Shown piece by piece: positions 32,323-40,825 of a stretch of DNA of 64,000 bases. This DNA comes from Algibacter lectus (lineage in GTDB: Bacteria > Bacteroidota > Bacteroidia > Flavobacteriales > Flavobacteriaceae): positions 62,001 through 126,000 of the forward strand of contig NZ_FOLN01000004.1 in NCBI RefSeq assembly GCF_900112395.1. Direction: 5' to 3'. Below the pieces are notes generated by a model, which saw only the letters and a list, made by a program, of their open reading frames with translations, had not been told where the DNA came from and searched no databases. The position numbers were made by a program, and so were the translations under genes. Within the stretch, counting starts at the first letter, position 1. The number at the start of each line of letters is the position of its first letter.

Positions 32323-32577
32323 ATGGAAAATAAAAAACAAAAAGAAGCAACAAAAGCCACCTTTGTATTTGGCAAGAAAAACTATAAATTCATGTTTATT
32401 GGTTTAGCAATTATTGCTCTTGGTTTTATTTTAATGTCTGGTGGTGGCAGTGACGATCCTGCAGTTTTTAATCCAGAAATTTTTAGCTGGAGACGTATCC
32501 GTTTGGCACCAATGCTTATTCTTATTGGATTTGGCTTTCAGGTTTATGCCATTTTATTAAATCCGAATAAAAAGTAA
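32323..32577 (+). CDS. DUF3098 small membrane protein
   Basis: 84-residue protein with two transmembrane helices (residues ~24-40 and ~62-78) around a short loop SGGGSDDPAVFNPEIFSWRRIRLAP, the DUF3098 pattern found downstream of ftsX in many Bacteroidota. A role with FtsX in the division apparatus is inferred only from this conserved neighbourhood. The next gene is convergent (glycerate kinase), while its usual downstream partner uppP is 8.3 kb away. Confidence 0.85.
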   Translation: MENKKQKEATKATFVFGKKNYKFMFIGLAIIALGFILMSGGGSDDPAVFNPEIFSWRRIRLAPMLILIGFGFQVYAILLNPNKK

Positions 32578-32654: not shown

Positions 32655-33776
32655 TTATAATTGTCTAGCAAACGTAGTTGCCATTTTTTCTACATAGCCA
32701 TAGCTATTTTTCATAGCATCATTTAAACTTTTCGAATACTTAATAACGGCATCGGTATATTCTATCCCGAAATCTTTAGCGTTATCATTTTCTAAATCTA
32801 TAGATCCACAAAAGGCAGCGACTTTTATTTGTTTCGCTTTCGCGGAAGATAGCACGCCTTGTATTGTTTTTCCAGACATGGTTTGCGTATCTAGCTTGCC
32901 TTCCCCTGTAATAATCCAATCGGCATCATGCAATTGCTTATCAAACTGAGCTAAGTCTTTTATAAGCTCAATACCGCGCTCTAAAGTACCATTCAAAAAC
33001 ACTTTTGAAGCAATACCCATACCGCCGGCAGCACCCGCACCTTGAATACTTTGCGCATCGACACCAAAAACAGACTGTAATATTTTAGCAAAAGATTTTA
33101 AGCCATCATCTAGCAAAATAATATCTCGCGCCTTGGCTCCTTTTTGAGTTGCATAAACATAAGCCGCACCATCTTCTCCGTACAACGGATTGGTAACATC
33201 GCAGGCTATTTTAAAATTAACTTCGCTAATATTAGGATGTACATTAGTGGCATCGATAGATCTAATATTTAATAAATTAAATCCCGTAGGCACAACTTCC
33301 TTTCCTTTTTCATCTAAAAAACGATAGCCTAAAGCTGTTGCCATACCAATACCACAATCATTGGTTGCACTGCCACCTATACCTAAAATAATAGTTCTAG
33401 CGCCTTTATTTAAAGCATCCAAAATCATATCTCCTGTGCCGAGTGTGGTGGCATTTTTACAATCGAAATCCTTACGTTTTAAAAGTTTTAAACCCGAAGC
33501 TTCAGCCATTTCAATAAAAGCTGTTTTAGACGCTTCAGCATAAAGATAATTCGCTTTTATAGGTTCAAAAAACGGATTACTAACATCGACCTCAACAACT
33601 CTTCCATTCAAATAAAAATTAACGACCTCAATAGTACCGTCTCCACCATCGGCCAGTGGTAATTTTAAAATATCAATATCTGGATTTACAGCATGAATAC
33701 CAGCCTCAACAGCTTGGCAAAACGCCATACCGGTTAAAGAATTTTTAAATTTATCGGGAGCAAGTACAATTTTCAT
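32655..33776 (-). CDS. glxK: Glycerate kinase (GlxK/GarK family)
   Basis: 373-residue cytoplasmic kinase converting D-glycerate to phosphoglycerate (2-phosphoglycerate in characterised bacterial members), which enters lower glycolysis. The family signatures are seen at the N-terminus (IVLAPDKFKNSLTGMAFCQAV; LPLADGGDGTIEV) and in the centre (GIGGSATNDCGIGMA, residues ~134-148; GAAGGMGIA). Last gene of GH63-symporter-glxK, 12 bp after the symporter gene, so its job is probably to capture glycerate released by the glycosidase. Contains the 16-mer TTTCGCTTTCGCGGAA (32832-32847) as coding sequence. Confidence 0.93.
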   Translation of the reverse strand: MKIVLAPDKFKNSLTGMAFCQAVEAGIHAVNPDIDILKLPLADGGDGTIEVVNFYLNGRVVEVDVSNPFFEPIKANYLYAEASKTAFIEMAEASGLKLLKRKDFDCKNATTLGTGDMILDALNKGARTIILGIGGSATNDCGIGMATALGYRFLDEKGKEVVPTGFNLLNIRSIDATNVHPNISEVNFKIACDVTNPLYGEDGAAYVYATQKGAKARDIILLDDGLKSFAKILQSVFGVDAQSIQGAGAAGGMGIASKVFLNGTLERGIELIKDLAQFDKQLHDADWIITGEGKLDTQTMSGKTIQGVLSSAKAKQIKVAAFCGSIDLENDNAKDFGIEYTDAVIKYSKSLNDAMKNSYGYVEKMATTFARQL

Positions 33777-33788
33777 AGTATAACTATT

Positions 33789-35435
33789 TTAACTTAAAAT
33801 TGAAGGAAGGAAAAAGCTTAAAACCAATATAAAAACAAAAAAAGCAAGAAGTATATAAACCTCTTTTATCATGAAGTCTTCTTTTTTAATACTCACATTA
33901 AAATTAGAAATGCTTTTCACTTTAGTTTTACTCGTTAAAGCACTAACAGCATAAGCCACAACTAAGGCAATTATAACGCCTGTAAAGTTTAACCAAATCC
34001 AAAAGATATTAAATCCTAAATCAATATGAAACAACTCTTGAATTGTTTTTGAAAACATTAAATTTATTAAAACAGCTGAGATAATACCAGCATTCATACC
34101 AATGTGATTTATTTTTTTTGAAAAGAACGCCAAAAAGAACGTCACCAATACCGGACCATAAAATACAGAACCAATAGCATTAATAATTTCTATTACTGCA
34201 TTTTTACTACCTCCAAAAAGAAAGGCACTCGCAATACAAACTAATCCCCAAAAAACTACCGATCCTTTTGAAATCATCATGTATTTTTTTGTGCTTAATT
34301 TATTTTCTCCTCGGTTAAAAAAATCTTCTACGGTAACTGCAGAAAGCGAATTAACGGTTGAACTTAAAGACGACATAGCCGCAGATAATATACCTACCAT
34401 TAAAATACCTATTAAACCATGTGGTAAATATTTAATGATAAATACAGGAACCATTAAATCGGCCTTAATACCGTGCTTAGCAAATTGATATGGAAAATGC
34501 CTTTGGGTAGTATCGGCTATTTCGGCTAGAAAATCGGGAGCAAGTGTAATTAAACCACCGATAACTAAGCCCATAATACAGTACACTAAAACTACAGGAA
34601 ATCTTAAAAGTCCGTTTGCTAAAAGTAGGCTTCTAATTGTTTTTTCATCTTTAGCAGAAAGCATACGCTGTGCTTGTGTTTGGTCGCAACCATAATAAGA
34701 GGCATATAAAAAGAACCCACCAAGTATCATGGGTAATAAACCATATTCGTTCCCTTCACCAACACCTAAATTATAATCAATAATTTGTAATCTTTCTGGG
34801 TCGAATCCAGCTTCTAATCCACCGTGTTCCTGCAATAAGTTCCATCCATAATACAAGCAGATAATTAATCCTGCAAATAAAATAATCATTTGAATGGCAT
34901 CGCCCCAAACAACGGCTTTCATGCCGCCTTGCCAAGAATAAATAATAGTGATAACACTAATAATTAAAATGGTATAAACAAAATCGATATCTAATACGGC
35001 TTGCAAAATAATTGCAATAGTATACACCATTACTCCGGTACCAAGCGCTCTACTTATTTGAAAAACAATACTTAAAATTAATCGTGTTGATGTGCTAAAA
35101 CGTTTTTCTACAAACTCATAAATACTAACAACACCAGATCTAAATAATGGCGGAATAATAACGATCATTATAAAAATCATAGCCAACGGCACGGCAAACT
35201 CAAAGGTTAGCCATTTCATTCCTCCATTTAGTTTTAAACCTACAAATGCCGGCGCAGAAATAAAACTTATTGCCGAAAGTTGTGTAGCCATGGTAGACAG
35301 GCTTAAAGGAAACCAGCCCATACTTTTTCCTCCTAAAAAATAATCTTTAGAGTCTTTATTATCTTTAAAGAAAAACCCCATTCCTAAAAAGAATACGATG
35401 TAAAATATTATGATACTATAATCTAGCCAATTCAT
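33789..35435 (-). CDS. Sodium/solute symporter (SSS family)
   Basis: 548-residue inner-membrane symporter with about 13-14 transmembrane helices. SSS signatures include SLSTMATQLSAISFISAPAF in TM2 and GILMVGILSAAMSSLSSTVNSLS in TM8, with the serines and threonines of the Na2 site. Similar to SGLT/PanF-like sugar or organic acid symporters. In this locus the expected cargo is a small negatively charged glycoside (glycosylglycerate) or its products, since it lies between GH63 and glycerate kinase genes. It has a 121-bp gap upstream and is 12 bp from glxK. Confidence 0.88.
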   Translation of the reverse strand: MNWLDYSIIIFYIVFFLGMGFFFKDNKDSKDYFLGGKSMGWFPLSLSTMATQLSAISFISAPAFVGLKLNGGMKWLTFEFAVPLAMIFIMIVIIPPLFRSGVVSIYEFVEKRFSTSTRLILSIVFQISRALGTGVMVYTIAIILQAVLDIDFVYTILIISVITIIYSWQGGMKAVVWGDAIQMIILFAGLIICLYYGWNLLQEHGGLEAGFDPERLQIIDYNLGVGEGNEYGLLPMILGGFFLYASYYGCDQTQAQRMLSAKDEKTIRSLLLANGLLRFPVVLVYCIMGLVIGGLITLAPDFLAEIADTTQRHFPYQFAKHGIKADLMVPVFIIKYLPHGLIGILMVGILSAAMSSLSSTVNSLSAVTVEDFFNRGENKLSTKKYMMISKGSVVFWGLVCIASAFLFGGSKNAVIEIINAIGSVFYGPVLVTFFLAFFSKKINHIGMNAGIISAVLINLMFSKTIQELFHIDLGFNIFWIWLNFTGVIIALVVAYAVSALTSKTKVKSISNFNVSIKKEDFMIKEVYILLAFFVFILVLSFFLPSILS

Positions 35436-35556
35436 AATGTTAAGTTTAGTGGTTAGTTGGTTGATACAAGATAAAACAAAGGATTTTAACTAATAGATAA
35501 AACCCTTTATTTCAAATTTTTAGTTTGTTCGTAAAAAAACATTTAAAGAATTTCAA

Positions 35557-36858
35557 TTAATCATTCAATAAATCTATAAGTAATGCGGCACTCCAAGAAA
35601 AATCGTTACCTCCGTAACCAGCGGTTCCGTCTTTATGCATTTCTTTTCTAGAATCAAAATACTCATAAAACCCGTTTTTTTCAATAATTTCAATAGTATC
35701 TTGTTTTACGCGCTCTGCTATTTCAGAAAAACCATATTGTTTTAATCCTTTAAAAAGCATCCAGTTTAGGTTTATCCAAACAGGACCTCTCCAATATTTT
35801 TTAGGGTTGAAACGTTCGCTAGTTGGATCGAAAGAGGCACACAAATATTGCTGATCGCCTCCAAACTTCTCCATCATAACTTTCACCATAGAATCAGCAC
35901 GTTCTTTACTTGGAATATTTGCATACAAAGGAGCAAATGATGACGATGACAAATAACGAAGTGGTTTTTCATTACGTAAATCATAATGAATATATGCACC
36001 TAATTCTTCATCAAACAACTTATCATTAAAAGCTTTTACACTTTTATCTTGCCATTGTTTAAGCTGCTCAACTTTAGAATAATCTCCTAATAATTCATAC
36101 AAATTAATTAAACTTTGATTTGACTTAATAAGTATAGCGTTAAATAAAGGATCTTGCACTAAAAACGGTGATAATTCAGCAATTTTTTCATCACTATAAT
36201 TATGTTCTTTAGCAATATCTATAATATATAAATAATGATCGTATTCTCTTTTCGAAGGTCTTTCGGCTGCATCAACATGCGTAGTATCACGACGTTCGAA
36301 TGTATATTCTGGCGGATCCATGGTGTCCCAAATATCATCCCAAATTGGAGAATTATCGGTACCTGATTCCCAGTTATGATAAATATAAACCAAGCCTTCA
36401 TTTTGTGGATCACGCTTTGTAAAAAAGTAATTATGGTTATCGTAAACTTTGTCGATTACCGTTTCAATATACTTTAAGGTTGCAACTTTATCTTTACTAA
36501 TTCTATACATTTCCTCTAAAACAAAACCTGTAACGGGTGGCTGCGTCATCCCTGTTGATTTGTACTTTTTAGAAGATTGCGGATGTAAATCTGACCTATG
36601 AAAATCTGGACCAGGAAAATACGTATCGGTATCTGTGTGAAAGATAATATGTGGAATAAAGCCGTTTTCCCATTGTGCATCTAGCAGAGTTTCTATTTCT
36701 TGTTCTGCTTTTTGCATATCGAAATGTGCAAAACCAATAGCAATTAACCCTGAATCCCAAAACCATTGAAATGGGTATAACTTTGCGCAAGGTATGCTAA
36801 ATCCTTCTTTAAAATTGTTATTTAGAACTGTTTGAGCTCTTTCTTGTAATGCTTTCAT
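35557..36858 (-). CDS. GH63-family glycosidase, predicted mannosyl-/glucosylglycerate hydrolase
   Basis: 433-residue protein with an (alpha/alpha)6-barrel GH63-type sequence and no signal peptide, so cytoplasmic. Motifs: YPFQWFWDSGLIAIGF (residues 28-43), then NWESGTDNSPIWD with candidate general acid D168, RGPVWINLNWMLFKGL (357-372), and candidate general base E399 in GFYEYFD. Length and these positions agree with bacterial mannosylglycerate/glucosylglycerate hydrolases of GH63 (Thermus and Mycolicibacterium types), which cut the sugar from glycerate. GH37 trehalase is less likely. The downstream glycerate kinase strongly supports a glycerate-containing substrate. The exact sugar is not decidable. 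Confidence 0.78.
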   Translation of the reverse strand: MKALQERAQTVLNNNFKEGFSIPCAKLYPFQWFWDSGLIAIGFAHFDMQKAEQEIETLLDAQWENGFIPHIIFHTDTDTYFPGPDFHRSDLHPQSSKKYKSTGMTQPPVTGFVLEEMYRISKDKVATLKYIETVIDKVYDNHNYFFTKRDPQNEGLVYIYHNWESGTDNSPIWDDIWDTMDPPEYTFERRDTTHVDAAERPSKREYDHYLYIIDIAKEHNYSDEKIAELSPFLVQDPLFNAILIKSNQSLINLYELLGDYSKVEQLKQWQDKSVKAFNDKLFDEELGAYIHYDLRNEKPLRYLSSSSFAPLYANIPSKERADSMVKVMMEKFGGDQQYLCASFDPTSERFNPKKYWRGPVWINLNWMLFKGLKQYGFSEIAERVKQDTIEIIEKNGFYEYFDSRKEMHKDGTAGYGGNDFSWSAALLIDLLND

Positions 36859-36872
36859 ATCTTTTTTTATTT

Positions 36873-36912
36873 AAAAAACTCACCACTTAAAAACTTTACC
36901 AAAAGTGGTGAG
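36873..36912 (-). terminator. Hairpin with T-run between receptor and glycosidase genes
   Basis: Perfect 10-bp stem CTCACCACTT (36879-36888) / AAGTGGTGAG (36903-36912), followed on the minus strand by TTTTTT. It stops or attenuates transcription after the TonB receptor gene, so the GH63-symporter-glxK genes may be expressed at lower levels by readthrough. Confidence 0.75.
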
Positions 36913-36950
36913 CAACTAATCTAACCTCTGTAATTATGGGTTAAAACAAA

Positions 36951-36962
36951 CTAAACGTTTAG
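36951..36962. promoter_or_regulatory. Candidate LacI-family operator (receptor/GH63 boundary)
   Basis: Perfect 12-bp palindrome CTAAACGTTTAG, sharing the AAACGTTT core with the two sites at 39743-39766. It overlaps the stop codon of the TonB receptor and lies 93 bp upstream of the GH63 start. Assignment to the local LacI protein is by proximity and shared core. Confidence 0.5.
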
Positions 36963-39661
36963 AAGGTTAGCGTAGCGTTAAAAAATGCACGTCTTGGTAA
37001 AATTGGACGACCAACAAAATAATCTTGAGTTGTTGATTGTGAAAAGGCTCTCGGGTCTCCTTCTGATAAACCTTGACTATCGGCTAGGTTATAAACTGAA
37101 AACCCAAGTCTTAATTTTTTATCATCTTCAAAACCTATAGTGTATCCTGCTCCAATTCTCAATACCGTAAACCCATCTAACTCAACTAGGTTTGCGTCAT
37201 CATTAAATTGACTTCCTCTAATATTTGCAGATGCAAAAGCATCTAATTTTTTATTATCATAATCAAAACGTAAGGTTGATAATGCTGTTGGCTGTCTTCT
37301 TAACTGTTTTCCAACATTAGCACCATTTGTAACATCGCCTTCAACTAAAACTACACCATCTACAGTACCAGACTGCAATACTGTTCTTTCGTCTTTTTTA
37401 AGCTCATGACCTTGGTAAGTAAAGTTTCCGTTAAAAGAAAGATTTTCAGCAAACTTCCATAACCATGATACTTCCATACCAAGTGTTTTGGTATCTTGAA
37501 GAGTTTTTATTCCATCTACAGTACCTATAGTTCCACCGTAGTTTAATCTTTGAATAGCAACTCGATCCACAAGTGTTGTATAGTAGGCTGCAAAAGTTCC
37601 AGAGAATTTACTGCTTCCATATTTTAAACCTGTTTCAACTTGATAGATATTTTCAGGCTTATATTCACCTGCAATAACATCATTACTTACCACATTAATA
37701 CTTCTAGTTAATGGGAAGAAATATCCTTTAGACATGTTGGCGTAGGCATTTAAATTGTCGTTAATTTTATAAAGTGCAGCCAAAGATGCAGCAAAACCAG
37801 TAGTACTTACCTCTGCTCTTTTATACTCACCTGTTGCGTAACCTACGTTTTGTAATGCAGACGTTAATCCAACATCGTTATAAACTTGTTTAGTAGCTGT
37901 AGTTCCAATTTCTCTACTGGCTTTTTGATTTTCTACACGGAAACCAACATCAATACGCCATCTATCTAAAACCATCTCATCGGTTAAGTAAAACGCTGTT
38001 CTATCTTGAGTAAGAAACGTTGCAGCAGTACGCCCAATTCTGGCTGTTAATCCATTTTCTGCTAAAATAACATCGTCACCATTAACATCAGTAAATGAAA
38101 GATTTACTAACTCTGGAGCATCATTAAATGCTGATAATGTTCGGTATTGCCAGTTATTATCCTCTCCTTGCGAAGATGTTAAATACGTACCTAAAGTAAT
38201 ATTGTGCTCAACTTTATCTCCTTCTAATTTTTTAGTGATACTAAACTCACCTGTTAAATCTGTAATAGGTCTATTTCTGTCAATATTTAAGTTATCAATA
38301 ACTCTATCATTTGCCGCAAGCGCTGTTCCTCCAACATAAGATGCATTAATATTAGTAGCACCAGCATAACCATATGCATCTAAATAATCGCTTAAATTAG
38401 CAGGGGTATTTACCGTACCACTAGCCGCAACATACAATCCAAAATTATTTACATAATCGGATACTTTTACTTTAGAATTAATTTTCCAATCGTTCCCTAA
38501 ATCGTAATCAAAAACTCCCATAGCATAGAACCCTTTAGTGTGTACACCATCTCCTATTGGGCTTTTATATTCTCCAGCTGGAGTTAAAAAACTAATATTT
38601 CTAACGTGTGAAGAATTTAATTGATAAACCGTTTCGCCATCATTACCCGTAATTCTTTCTCGAGAATCTCCATCTAAAGGCAGACCTAATAAAAACTGAG
38701 CTTTATCATCAATAAACTGCGTGTAGAAAGTAAAAGATCCGTTTTCGAATTTCTTTTTTAAATTTCCTCTAAACTGATATCCTTTTGTTGGTAATCCAAA
38801 ATCTAAAGGTCCATCATCCTTACGAACAAAACCAGATACTGCATAGTAAGTTTTAGAGTCTTCTCCTCCTACTTTACCACCAGAATAAAATTCTCCTTTT
38901 ATTCTTCCTTTGGTTGCTACTTCAAAATTTATAATATTTTCATCATTAGTATCACCTGTTTTAGAAATGTAGTTCATCACACCTGCTGTAGAACCCGCAC
39001 CATATAAAATAGACGAACCTCCACGTACAAACTCTACACCTTTTACACCTTGATCTACTTTAGCATAAACATCTCCGGCCGTAGAACTCAATCCGTAACC
39101 AGCTAACGTTAAGCCATCATATTGTATCGGAGAAAAATCGTTTTGACCTCCAGAAGGTAAACCTCTAACAAATATATTTGTAGCAGCTTCACCTCCACCA
39201 CCATCGGCAACAATACCAGGGATAGAAGCCACAATATCAGCTTGACTATTCGCATTTAAACGTGTTAACTCTTGAGCCTTTAATGATGAAATTGAATTTG
39301 GCGTTTCTTTTTGAGATCTAAACGTAGAAGATGCCGTTAATACAACCTCATCTAAAGTGTTTCCTCCTTCAACCATAACAAAATCCAAAGTCATTGCACC
39401 TCCGCTTAATGTTACTGTTTTATTTAAAGTTTCGTAACCTAAAAAGGATACTATAATTTTTTGTGCTCCGGAAACACTTGTGGTAAAACTATAATTACCA
39501 TCAAAATCGGTAGTGGCTCCCGAAGAGCTTCCTTCAATTAAAACGTTTGCCCCTGTTACAGGAACACCCGAATTGTCTTTAACTGTTCCTTTAATGTCTG
39601 TTTGCGCAAACATTGTAGAAACACTAAAAACACATAACAGTGTGTAAAATAATTTGGTCAT
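36959..39661 (-). CDS. TonB-dependent receptor with CarboxypepD_reg-like domain
   Basis: 900-residue outer-membrane beta-barrel. Signal peptide (residues 1-19, ending TMFAQ), an N-terminal carboxypeptidase-regulatory-like domain (TDIKGTVKDNSGVPVTGANVLIEG..., ~20-105), plug (~115-235) with RGLPSGGQNDFSPIQYDG and VEFVRGGSSILYGAGSTAGVMN, then the barrel ending in aromatic NATLTF. There is no adjacent SusD, so it is probably not a glycan-binding SusCD pair but takes up a small solute. It is divergent from the LacI regulator, and the operators lie between. Predicted cargo: glycosylglycerate. Confidence 0.88.
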   Translation of the reverse strand: MTKLFYTLLCVFSVSTMFAQTDIKGTVKDNSGVPVTGANVLIEGSSSGATTDFDGNYSFTTSVSGAQKIIVSFLGYETLNKTVTLSGGAMTLDFVMVEGGNTLDEVVLTASSTFRSQKETPNSISSLKAQELTRLNANSQADIVASIPGIVADGGGGEAATNIFVRGLPSGGQNDFSPIQYDGLTLAGYGLSSTAGDVYAKVDQGVKGVEFVRGGSSILYGAGSTAGVMNYISKTGDTNDENIINFEVATKGRIKGEFYSGGKVGGEDSKTYYAVSGFVRKDDGPLDFGLPTKGYQFRGNLKKKFENGSFTFYTQFIDDKAQFLLGLPLDGDSRERITGNDGETVYQLNSSHVRNISFLTPAGEYKSPIGDGVHTKGFYAMGVFDYDLGNDWKINSKVKVSDYVNNFGLYVAASGTVNTPANLSDYLDAYGYAGATNINASYVGGTALAANDRVIDNLNIDRNRPITDLTGEFSITKKLEGDKVEHNITLGTYLTSSQGEDNNWQYRTLSAFNDAPELVNLSFTDVNGDDVILAENGLTARIGRTAATFLTQDRTAFYLTDEMVLDRWRIDVGFRVENQKASREIGTTATKQVYNDVGLTSALQNVGYATGEYKRAEVSTTGFAASLAALYKINDNLNAYANMSKGYFFPLTRSINVVSNDVIAGEYKPENIYQVETGLKYGSSKFSGTFAAYYTTLVDRVAIQRLNYGGTIGTVDGIKTLQDTKTLGMEVSWLWKFAENLSFNGNFTYQGHELKKDERTVLQSGTVDGVVLVEGDVTNGANVGKQLRRQPTALSTLRFDYDNKKLDAFASANIRGSQFNDDANLVELDGFTVLRIGAGYTIGFEDDKKLRLGFSVYNLADSQGLSEGDPRAFSQSTTQDYFVGRPILPRRAFFNATLTF

Positions 39662-39688
39662 AATATTTAGTTTTAGTTAATTTTTATC

Positions 39689-39696
39689 CAAATTTA
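39689..39696 (-). promoter_or_regulatory. Bacteroidota -7 promoter element for the TonB receptor
   Basis: TAAATTTG on the minus strand (TAnnTTTG), 28 bp before the receptor start. The candidate operators lie about 47-77 bp upstream of it, a position that could serve either repression by looping or activation. Confidence 0.5.
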
Positions 39697-39742
39697 TAAC
39701 GACATACATATAAAAAGTTCTAAAAAATTATCATATTTTCAC

Positions 39743-39766
39743 GCAAACGTTTGCGGAAACGTTTGT
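39743..39766. promoter_or_regulatory. Two adjacent candidate LacI operators
   Basis: GCAAACGTTTGC (39743-39754) is a perfect 12-bp palindrome; GGAAACGTTTGT (39755-39766) is a near repeat directly beside it. Their CG centres are 12 bp apart. Both have the central CpG and AAACGTTT core typical of LacI/PurR-type operators. They lie between the divergent receptor and lacI genes, so could control both. Confidence 0.65.
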
Positions 39767-39802
39767 TATTTGTATTTTTTTTAACAAAACACTATAATTA
39801 AG

Positions 39803-40825
39803 ATGAAAAAAGAAGCTGTCACCCTAAAAAAACTAGCCCAAACACTTGATTTATCGATATCTACAGTATCAAGAGCACTTAGTAATCATCCAGATATTAG
39901 TGAAGAAACTAAAGAAAAGGTTAGAAAACTTGCCGATGCCCTGCACTATGTACCAAACATTTTTGCTCAAGGGTTTAGAAATCGAAAAACTAAAATTATT
40001 GGTGTTGTTGTACCCAACATTACACATTACTTTACAACCACCATGGTAAGAGGCATTTTAGAAGAAGCCGCCATTAAAGGATACCGCGTTATTATTTCTG
40101 AATCTAATAACGATCCGTTAAGGCAAACCGAAATGCTAAACACCATGTTGCAATTTGGAGTTGATGGAATTTTGGTGTCTTTAACTAAAATGACACGCGA
40201 TATCGACGATGTACTAAAAATTTTAAATAAAATCCCGCTTATCCTATTTGACAAAGTTTCGAGTAAAATTCCCTGTACACAAATTACCATAAACGATGAA
40301 GAAGCCGCCCATGATGCCGTTGAGCACTTAATAAATATTGGCAAAAAGCGCATTGCTATTATAAAAGAACGTGATTTCTCTTACACTTCGGAAAAAAGAT
40401 ATGCCGGTTATCTAAGCGCTCTAAAAGAACATAATTTAGAGATAGATGAAAAACTAATTATAAGTGTAGATGATATTTCTACCCAGCATGGCCAACAGAT
40501 GACCAATCATTTATTAAGCATAAAAAACCCACCAGACGCCATTTTCGCTATTACCGATAGTGCGGCTATAGGTGTTATACAAACGCTTAAAAAATTCGAT
40601 ATAAAAATACCAGAAGAAATTGCTGTGGTTGGCTTTAGTAATTCTCGCCGATCTACTGTAATCGAACCTAACCTTACAACTGTAGATCAACCTGGTGAAA
40701 CCATTGGAAAAAACGCTGTAAAGTACTTAATAGATGAAATTGAAAACACAGTAGAAAACGTATCAAATAAATTAATTGAAATAAAAGGCACTTTAATAAT
40801 TAGAGATTCCACTTTTAAAGTTTAA
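39803..40825 (+). CDS. LacI-family transcriptional regulator
   Basis: 340 residues. The N-terminal helix-turn-helix and hinge (VTLKKLAQTLDLSISTVSRALSNHPDISEETKEKV... VPNIFAQGFRN) are classic LacI, and residues ~65-335 form the periplasmic-binding-like effector domain (IIGVVVPNITHYFTTTMVRGIL; VAVVGFSNSRRSTVIEPNLTTVDQP). Divergent from the TonB receptor, with two adjacent palindromic operators in between. It likely controls the receptor and the glycosidase-symporter-kinase genes in response to the sugar or the intact glycoside. Confidence 0.93.
   Translation: MKKEAVTLKKLAQTLDLSISTVSRALSNHPDISEETKEKVRKLADALHYVPNIFAQGFRNRKTKIIGVVVPNITHYFTTTMVRGILEEAAIKGYRVIISESNNDPLRQTEMLNTMLQFGVDGILVSLTKMTRDIDDVLKILNKIPLILFDKVSSKIPCTQITINDEEAAHDAVEHLINIGKKRIAIIKERDFSYTSEKRYAGYLSALKEHNLEIDEKLIISVDDISTQHGQQMTNHLLSIKNPPDAIFAITDSAAIGVIQTLKKFDIKIPEEIAVVGFSNSRRSTVIEPNLTTVDQPGETIGKNAVKYLIDEIENTVENVSNKLIEIKGTLIIRDSTFKV

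Follow-up and report, generated by a model that had tools for sequence, protein, structure and literature searches.

Here we describe a five-gene locus at 32655-40825 of a 64,000-nucleotide stretch of the Algibacter lectus genome (contig NZ_FOLN01000004.1, positions 62,001 to 126,000; hereafter the window). Judged from sequence, it is very likely an inducible operon that scavenges 2-O-alpha-glycosyl-D-glycerates, of which mannosylglycerate (digeneaside) is the most likely natural substrate. An earlier note on this DNA had read the same genes as a LacI regulator, a TonB receptor without SusD, a cytoplasmic GH63 glycosidase, a sodium symporter and a glycerate kinase. Indeed, listing the open reading frames (ORFs) of the window returned all five at exactly the positions given there, and profile scores bore out their families:

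32655-33776, minus strand: glycerate kinase of the TIGR00045 family (PF02595, 443 bits; TIGR00045, 415 bits, passing the cut-off of 168)
33789-35435, minus strand: sodium:solute symporter, SSS family (PF00474, 134 bits; TIGR00813, 207 bits, cut-off 184)
35557-36858, minus strand: GH63 mannosylglycerate/glucosylglycerate-type hydrolase (PF22422, MGH1-like GH, 311 bits, cut-off 27)
36959-39661, minus strand: TonB-dependent receptor (N-terminal carboxypeptidase-regulatory-like domain CarbopepD_reg_2, Plug and TonB barrel)
39803-40825, plus strand, divergent from the operon: LacI-family regulator (LacI and Peripla_BP_3 domains)

The minus-strand genes, in the order kinase, symporter, hydrolase and receptor, are separated by 12, 121 and 100 bp, the LacI gene lies 141 bp from the receptor, and the G+C content of the locus (34%) is the same as that of its surroundings. 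The kinase is the only PF02595 match in the genome, and the nearest solved relatives of the symporter are Na+/iodide, monocarboxylate, multivitamin and glucose cotransporters. The receptor scored 86 bits on the SusC model TIGR04056 against a cut-off of 368, and is thus not SusC by that model. No SusD-size gene is present in 32655-40825, where the only other ORF of at least 100 amino acids is one antisense frame of 108, so the absence of SusD also stood.

Profile matches, PDB sequence search and fold all place the hydrolase among GH63 enzymes of the mannosylglycerate hydrolase (MgH)/glucosylglycerate hydrolase (GgH) type, away from trehalases and glucoamylases. In the PDB sequence search it matched the Thermus MgH at 314 bits and variants of the mycobacterial GgH at 212-220 bits, compared with 44 bits for YgjK and 40 bits for a trehalase, and a profile built from 26 hydrolase homologs gave the same rank order. 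When an AlphaFold model (mean pLDDT 94.3) was compared with the PDB, the first 20 of the 50 rows listed were entries of MgH and of MhGgH, the Mycolicibacterium hassiacum enzyme, with TM-scores by query length (TMq) of 0.84-0.93; the remaining 30 (YgjK, trehalases, a fungal glucosidase) reached 0.57-0.71. The best MhGgH match was at 0.93, the Thermus MgH structure 4wvc was at 0.91 with 37% sequence identity, and the model has the fold of the MgH/GgH subgroup seen in structures 4wva and 5ohc. A trehalase, glucoamylase or other GH63 identity could be ruled out by fold and sequence rank. The N-terminus, MKALQERAQTVLNNNF, has no obvious signal peptide as judged without a predictor. Deciding between MgH and GgH by a tree was abandoned: the 50-row tree is unrooted, with very long branches for the outgroup, MhGgH and Chloroflexota, and in a 30-row unrooted tree without the long-branch rows the Flavobacteriaceae clade and the Thermus MgH fall on opposite sides of the midpoint. 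We know of no characterised enzyme in the Flavobacteriaceae hydrolase clade.

We next turn to the active site, for which the residues contacting glucosylglycerate in MhGgH were taken from PMC6608630. The earlier note had pointed to a GH63 acid motif (D168) and a glutamate at 399; in the alignment they fall on D182 and E419, the catalytic residues of the mycobacterial enzyme, as acid and base respectively, and both are invariant in 132 of 132 distinct homologs with 35% identity or more (94 at 64% or more, 23 at 50-64% and 15 at 35-50%, after removal of 24 rows identical to others). In the +1 subsite, which holds the glycerate, all of Y28, W32, Y80, Q106, W163, R200, Y206 and Y355 are identical to MhGgH, with Y28, W32, Y80, R200 and Y355 as the direct glycerate contacts by alignment. 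Across all 19 substrate-contact or catalytic sites, the identity is 18/19 to MhGgH and 19/19 to the Thermus MgH, the sole exception being Q434 of MhGgH, which is F420 here and also F in Thermus. Sixteen of the 19 sites are constant across the 132 homologs (H70, F81 and Q106 vary in 4, 10 and 2), among them Y28, W32, Y80, W163, R200, Y206 and Y355. Six Chloroflexota homologs below 35% identity retain both catalytic residues and the greater part of the sugar side; in all six the alignment, at 28-30% identity, has gaps where Y80 and F81 would be, with E for W163 and F for Y355, and four have K for R200. As these distant homologs have lost several glycerate contacts, the glycerate side is not retained by mere family membership.

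The gene arrangement was compared across 80 loci, the best of 177 relatives found in named genomes and mostly from Flavobacteriaceae, a set that leans to close kin and in which counts of genomes and loci ignore shared descent. In 72 of these loci the hydrolase ORF is 50% identical or more (L077, with an incomplete hydrolase ORF, and L078-L084, below 50%, were left out). Within 6 kb of it, the symporter is found in 71, the LacI gene in 69, the kinase in 69, the receptor in 66 and all five genes in 63. Among the nine shorter loci, L006 and L028 lie on short contigs; in L035, L040 and L054 the missing gene was wholly or partly recovered by tblastn (in L040, a receptor homolog); L039, L045 and L055 have no receptor, and L066 has neither LacI gene nor receptor. 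The set occurs at several different genomic sites: flanks as in the window, which we take to be uppP and ftsX, recur in 17 of the 80 loci, and 58 distinct flank pairs were seen over 79 loci, an overcount of sites in that several pairs share the uppP side. The five-gene arrangement is not chance, because 63 of 72 loci hold all five genes, at several genomic sites; the search for the set in other genomes that the earlier note had called for was thus positive.

Some features of these loci deserve a separate mention. The symporters are 52 to 96% identical to that of the window, a spread that does not track hydrolase identity and suggests swaps of the symporter within the operon. In 23 of 80 loci (for example L007, 9315-9917), and also in the distant L152, hydrolase and symporter are separated by a GNAT acetyltransferase gene. 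In Flavivirga rizhaonensis (L012, 10056-10802) a gene of PF02522, the aminoglycoside 3-N-acetyltransferase family, sits inside the operon, and its protein is far under the NCBIfam cut-offs of resistance models. In the window, an 84-residue ORF at 32323-32574 (plus strand), presumably a DUF3098 relative, stands between the ftsX-like gene and the operon.

Two putative control elements lie between the receptor and LacI genes:

39742-39755, no strand assigned: LacI-type operator, the perfect palindrome CGCAAACGTTTGCG
39689-39696, minus strand: candidate -7 promoter box of the TonB receptor, 27 bp 5' of its ATG, a weakly supported match to TAnnTTTG, which we take to be the consensus

The operator, which we take to resemble PurR-type operators, is unique in the 4.81 Mb genome at one mismatch or fewer, and a reversed-pattern control gave 0 sites. 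Of 69 related divergent regions, 67 (all but L061 and L064) have a best match with at most two mismatches, and 1380 single-letter shuffles of such regions never did better than four. The 80 loci contain 63 matches with at most one mismatch, 62 near a LacI start and the other in L035, where LacI is incomplete; three receptor-less loci retain the site 5' of the hydrolase. For the window taken alone, a site with up to two mismatches is unremarkable, being present in 16 of 100 dinucleotide shuffles, and the weight of the operator rests on the exact match and on conservation. The simplest reading is a one-operon switch in which the LacI protein is predicted to act through a single operator. With one conserved operator, a reporter assay would be simple to set up.

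Taken as a pathway, the TonB receptor would carry the disaccharide acid across the outer membrane and the symporter, from its linkage, would carry it with Na+ across the inner membrane. That these two proteins transport the substrate is likely, given linkage and co-regulation. The apparently cytoplasmic hydrolase would then cleave it with inversion, as its conserved active site suggests, releasing mannose (or glucose) and D-glycerate. The kinase, assigned at family level, may convert glycerate to a phosphoglycerate (2- or 3-) that enters glycolysis, and the sugar would be taken by some hexose kinase and by a ManA that is encoded elsewhere in the genome. The LacI protein would repress only this operon, via the one predicted operator, until an inducer is present. 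Elsewhere in the genome we found one ManA, beside a LacI gene and kduI- and kduD-like genes (by eye), and a search of the ROK kinase family gave a single gene, regulator-like by its N-terminus.

We are most confident that the substrate is a glycosylglycerate of one kind or another; that it is chiefly mannosylglycerate is probable, a somewhat weaker claim. Mannosylglycerate is favoured because in 12 of 69 loci the gene directly after the kinase is ManA (L008 and L018 also match by tblastn; the L014 copy scores 150 bits on TIGR00218, cut-off 116). The same operon logic with glucosylglycerate, of cyanobacteria and other bacteria, as the main natural substrate is the alternative that survives best, and we consider it unlikely. 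The known MgH/GgH enzymes cleave both substrates, according to PMC6608630, and a glucosylglycerate-phosphorylase-like gene occurs in three loci. Against it stand the ManA genes, the rarity of the phosphorylase-like gene (3 of 80 loci) and the one varying sugar-contact residue, which is F as in the Thermus MgH and not Q as in MhGgH. This last point is weak evidence because the Thermus enzyme cleaves both substrates with similar efficiency. The phosphorylase-like genes and the GT4 genes found with two of them are located as follows:

L060: 6661-8001 and 9352-11046
L066: 2276-3625 and 6566-8260
L072: 10965-12662

The phosphorylase-like protein, which we infer to belong to GH13_18, bears a TETN motif; the L072 copy is closest, among solved structures, to sucrose and glucosylglycerol phosphorylases, and on TIGR03852 it scores 194 bits, under the cut-off of 334. 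TETN is a mark of glucosylglycerate phosphorylase, the gene for which is often near a glycerate kinase, according to PMC7178133. The other product of that phosphorylase is also glycerate. L060 and L066 also carry the GT4 gene, the L060 copy scoring 420 bits on mannosylglucosylglycerate synthase (cut-off 640), an odd companion for a breakdown operon.

The glycerate kinase bears on a second alternative, in which the hydrolase acts on some other alpha-glycoside (trehalose-like, glucosylglycerol or floridoside) and the kinase sits at the site for unrelated reasons. Co-occurrence was scored in one draw of 397 Flavobacteriaceae genomes, with the hydrolase counted at 52% identity or more; the 57 hydrolase genomes include the partial G281 and leave out G266 (29% identity). 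A PF02595 kinase is present in 57/57 hydrolase genomes compared with 125/340 others (Fisher 1.8e-22, ignoring kinship). In 48 of the 55 Flavobacteriaceae genomes examined for distance (G313 and G281 being outside this count), hydrolase and kinase are no more than 6 kb apart. The linkage of hydrolase, symporter and kinase thus recurs in Flavobacteriaceae, amid many different flanks; the glycerate contacts are intact; and glucosylglycerol was not cleaved by MhGgH according to PMC6608630. We therefore regard another glycoside as very unlikely. What speaks for it, besides the loci from other families described below, comes from three sides. The 125 hydrolase-free genomes with a kinase mean that adjacency alone is no proof. 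In 7 of the 55 genomes the two genes are not close together (in one of them, G158, the kinase is at a contig edge). And in two sister genomes of the same genus, the hydrolase, symporter, receptor and regulator are all missing at the same ftsX-uppP site while a 78-79% identical kinase is kept:

L178: 7927-9045, lone glycerate kinase
L179: 7975-9105, lone glycerate kinase

Either these genomes lost the other four genes or the kinase has been at the site for longer than they have, and the kinase may have a role of its own. In both sister genomes a tryptophan synthase beta-like gene, absent from the window at that place, also separates ftsX from the DUF3098-like ORF.

A wider draw of 395 Bacteroidota genomes gave 19 with a hydrolase match at E of 1e-25 or below, 7 of them Flavobacteriaceae. 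No homolog of the window kinase was found near the hydrolase in any of 13 loci (L152-L164) from 11 of the 12 non-Flavobacteriaceae genomes; the symporter adjoins the hydrolase in three of these loci, and a receptor homolog does in two. One of them, L152 (G636), from a distant Bacteroidota family, has the order receptor, hydrolase, GNAT gene, symporter; its divergent gene does not resemble LacI, and no kinase lies close by. The kinase linkage is thus a trait of Flavobacteriaceae and one Bacteroidales bin (L066), and our confidence in a glycosylglycerate operon is slightly lowered, and that in another glycoside slightly raised, because no kinase lies near the hydrolase outside Flavobacteriaceae. 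The earlier note had argued that a kinase beside such a hydrolase makes sense only if glycerate is released. Within Flavobacteriaceae the linkage it relied on is conserved (57/57 genomes; 69/72 loci), as are the glycerate contacts; adjacency by itself is not proof, as the sister genomes, the 125 of 340 and the 13 of 13 make plain.

Further points weigh, with those on the kinase, against the glycosylglycerate reading. The hydrolase scores 322.4 bits on NF047898, the NCBIfam glucosylglycerate hydrolase equivalog, below its cut-off of 550; its closest characterised relative is only 37% identical; and the entrance-tunnel residues M432 and Q433 of MhGgH are N418 and D419. None of the four partner genes was found in L078-L084, ManA is missing from the window's own operon, and in a second clade (below) the window-type LacI gene is missing from 23 of 25 loci and a close receptor homolog from 24 of 25.

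That the locus recycles a compatible solute made by the cell itself, the proposed role of MhGgH in mycobacteria (PMC6608630), is scarcely credible even though in L156 a 40% hydrolase homolog adjoins the mannosylglycerate synthesis genes for MpgS (524 bits, cut-off 351) and MpgP (338 bits, cut-off 244), since the operon has two transporter genes of import families and the window's genome has no match to mannosyl-3-phosphoglycerate synthase and at best 58 bits, against a cut-off of 262, for glucosyl-3-phosphoglycerate synthase, so that the substrate is likely imported and not self-made.

The second clade comprises 25 loci at 52-66% identity (L115-L134 and L167-L171). Here the symporter remains adjacent to the hydrolase, and mostly the kinase does too; weak receptor matches (26-29%) lie further off in some loci. 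A motif search found a different TonB receptor of about 790-830 residues, convergent to the kinase, in 8 of the 25, and Pfam confirmed three alternative receptors, each with a DUF4249 neighbour (L124, 1442-4688; L129, 11850-15099; L170, 12425-16548). This pair may replace the window-type receptor. A gene resembling murQ (N-acetylmuramic acid 6-phosphate etherase) is divergent to the hydrolase, symporter and kinase genes in L124, L129, L130, L133 and L169 (by motif) and in L134, L167 and L170 (by eye); the L124 copy is above the NCBIfam cut-off, and those of L129 and L170 have SIS/GKRP domains. The muramic-acid substrate at which these genes hint was set aside, as they were seen only in the second clade, among ORF-listed loci, and the glycerate contacts are unchanged there. 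In L132 (4399-5724) a GntP-family permease (TIGR00791, 288.6 bits, cut-off 292.75) stands beside symporter and hydrolase in the kinase's place.

The hydrolase family is therefore found alongside genes for making mannosylglycerate, for using mannose and for using glucosylglycerate, and the common part is glycerate. It is possible, as a tentative idea that we hold with rather less than even confidence, that marine Flavobacteriaceae carry modular islands for scavenging glycerate glycosides, built on a core of MgH-type hydrolase, symporter and usually kinase, to which interchangeable modules are added: the SusD-less receptor and its one-operator LacI switch, ManA for the mannose set free, a phosphorylase acting on glucosylglycerate, the GT4 near mannosylglucosylglycerate synthase or, in the second clade, perhaps the other receptor with its DUF4249 protein. 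If so, such islands would let bacteria tap several algal and bacterial sugar-glycerate solutes, which have not so far been treated as a common carbon currency.

Several known systems share parts of this design. Like loci of the SusCD type (polysaccharide utilisation loci with a SusC-like receptor and a SusD lipoprotein), the operon places a Bacteroidota TonB-dependent outer-membrane receptor beside catabolic genes. It differs in having no SusD, a receptor that is non-SusC by TIGR04056, no enzyme with an obvious signal peptide and, as proposed, a small acid disaccharide as substrate, and thus falls outside that class. The Thermus thermophilus HB8 MgH (4wva-c) resembles the hydrolase in fold and in every active-site residue, including F at the 434 position, and differs at the level of overall identity. 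MhGgH is likewise close in fold and contact residues, and differs at Q434, M432 and Q433; its proposed role (PMC6608630) is to mobilise the cell's own glucosylglycerate, unlike that of the locus. Glucosylglycerate phosphorylase clusters (GH13_18 GGaP with a glycerate kinase; PMC7178133) have the kinase partner and a glycosylglycerate substrate in common with the window, which has a hydrolase where they have a phosphorylase; a GGaP-like gene was seen only in L060, L066 and L072.

Regarding the source of the substrate, most Ceramiales red algae accumulate digeneaside in place of floridoside, and its part in osmotic acclimation is minor, with a content that stayed low in one species studied (both from PMC8523428). 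Digeneaside is also among the possible substrates of North Sea Flavobacteriia in PMC6298971. If the operon does take up digeneaside, it would serve as a genomic marker for the passage of low-molecular-weight carbon from red algae to bacteria, alongside the polysaccharide loci that are already well studied, and would offer a testable SusD-less receptor for a small charged sugar. In the literature searched, which leaves most subscription papers outside, we found neither an assayed flavobacterial enzyme or receptor of this type nor a paper linking digeneaside with GH63, and the main texts of PMC9296495, PMC5613140, PMC5698469 and PMC6262041 make no mention of glycerate, digenea, GH63 or mannosyl.

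The proposed substrate is shared with marine Flavobacteriaceae of the genera Zobellia and Maribacter. Barbeyron et al. 2016 is reportedly the source of the proposed digeneaside-degradation genes of Zobellia galactanivorans. Homologs of these were found in Maribacter dokdonensis 62-1, according to PMC8072126. The view of the earlier note that no system of this kind had been described was therefore too strong: its interpretation is supported, its claim to novelty is weakened, and the window locus is a further member of an already predicted kind, the general idea being already in print. In our comparison all five genes are present in four Zobellia loci (L043, L046, L050 and L051) and five Maribacter loci (L036, L042, L047, L048 and L073), the receptor being missing in the Maribacter loci L039 and L045. 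The operator, the co-occurrence counts and the ManA and phosphorylase variants are results of the present analysis.

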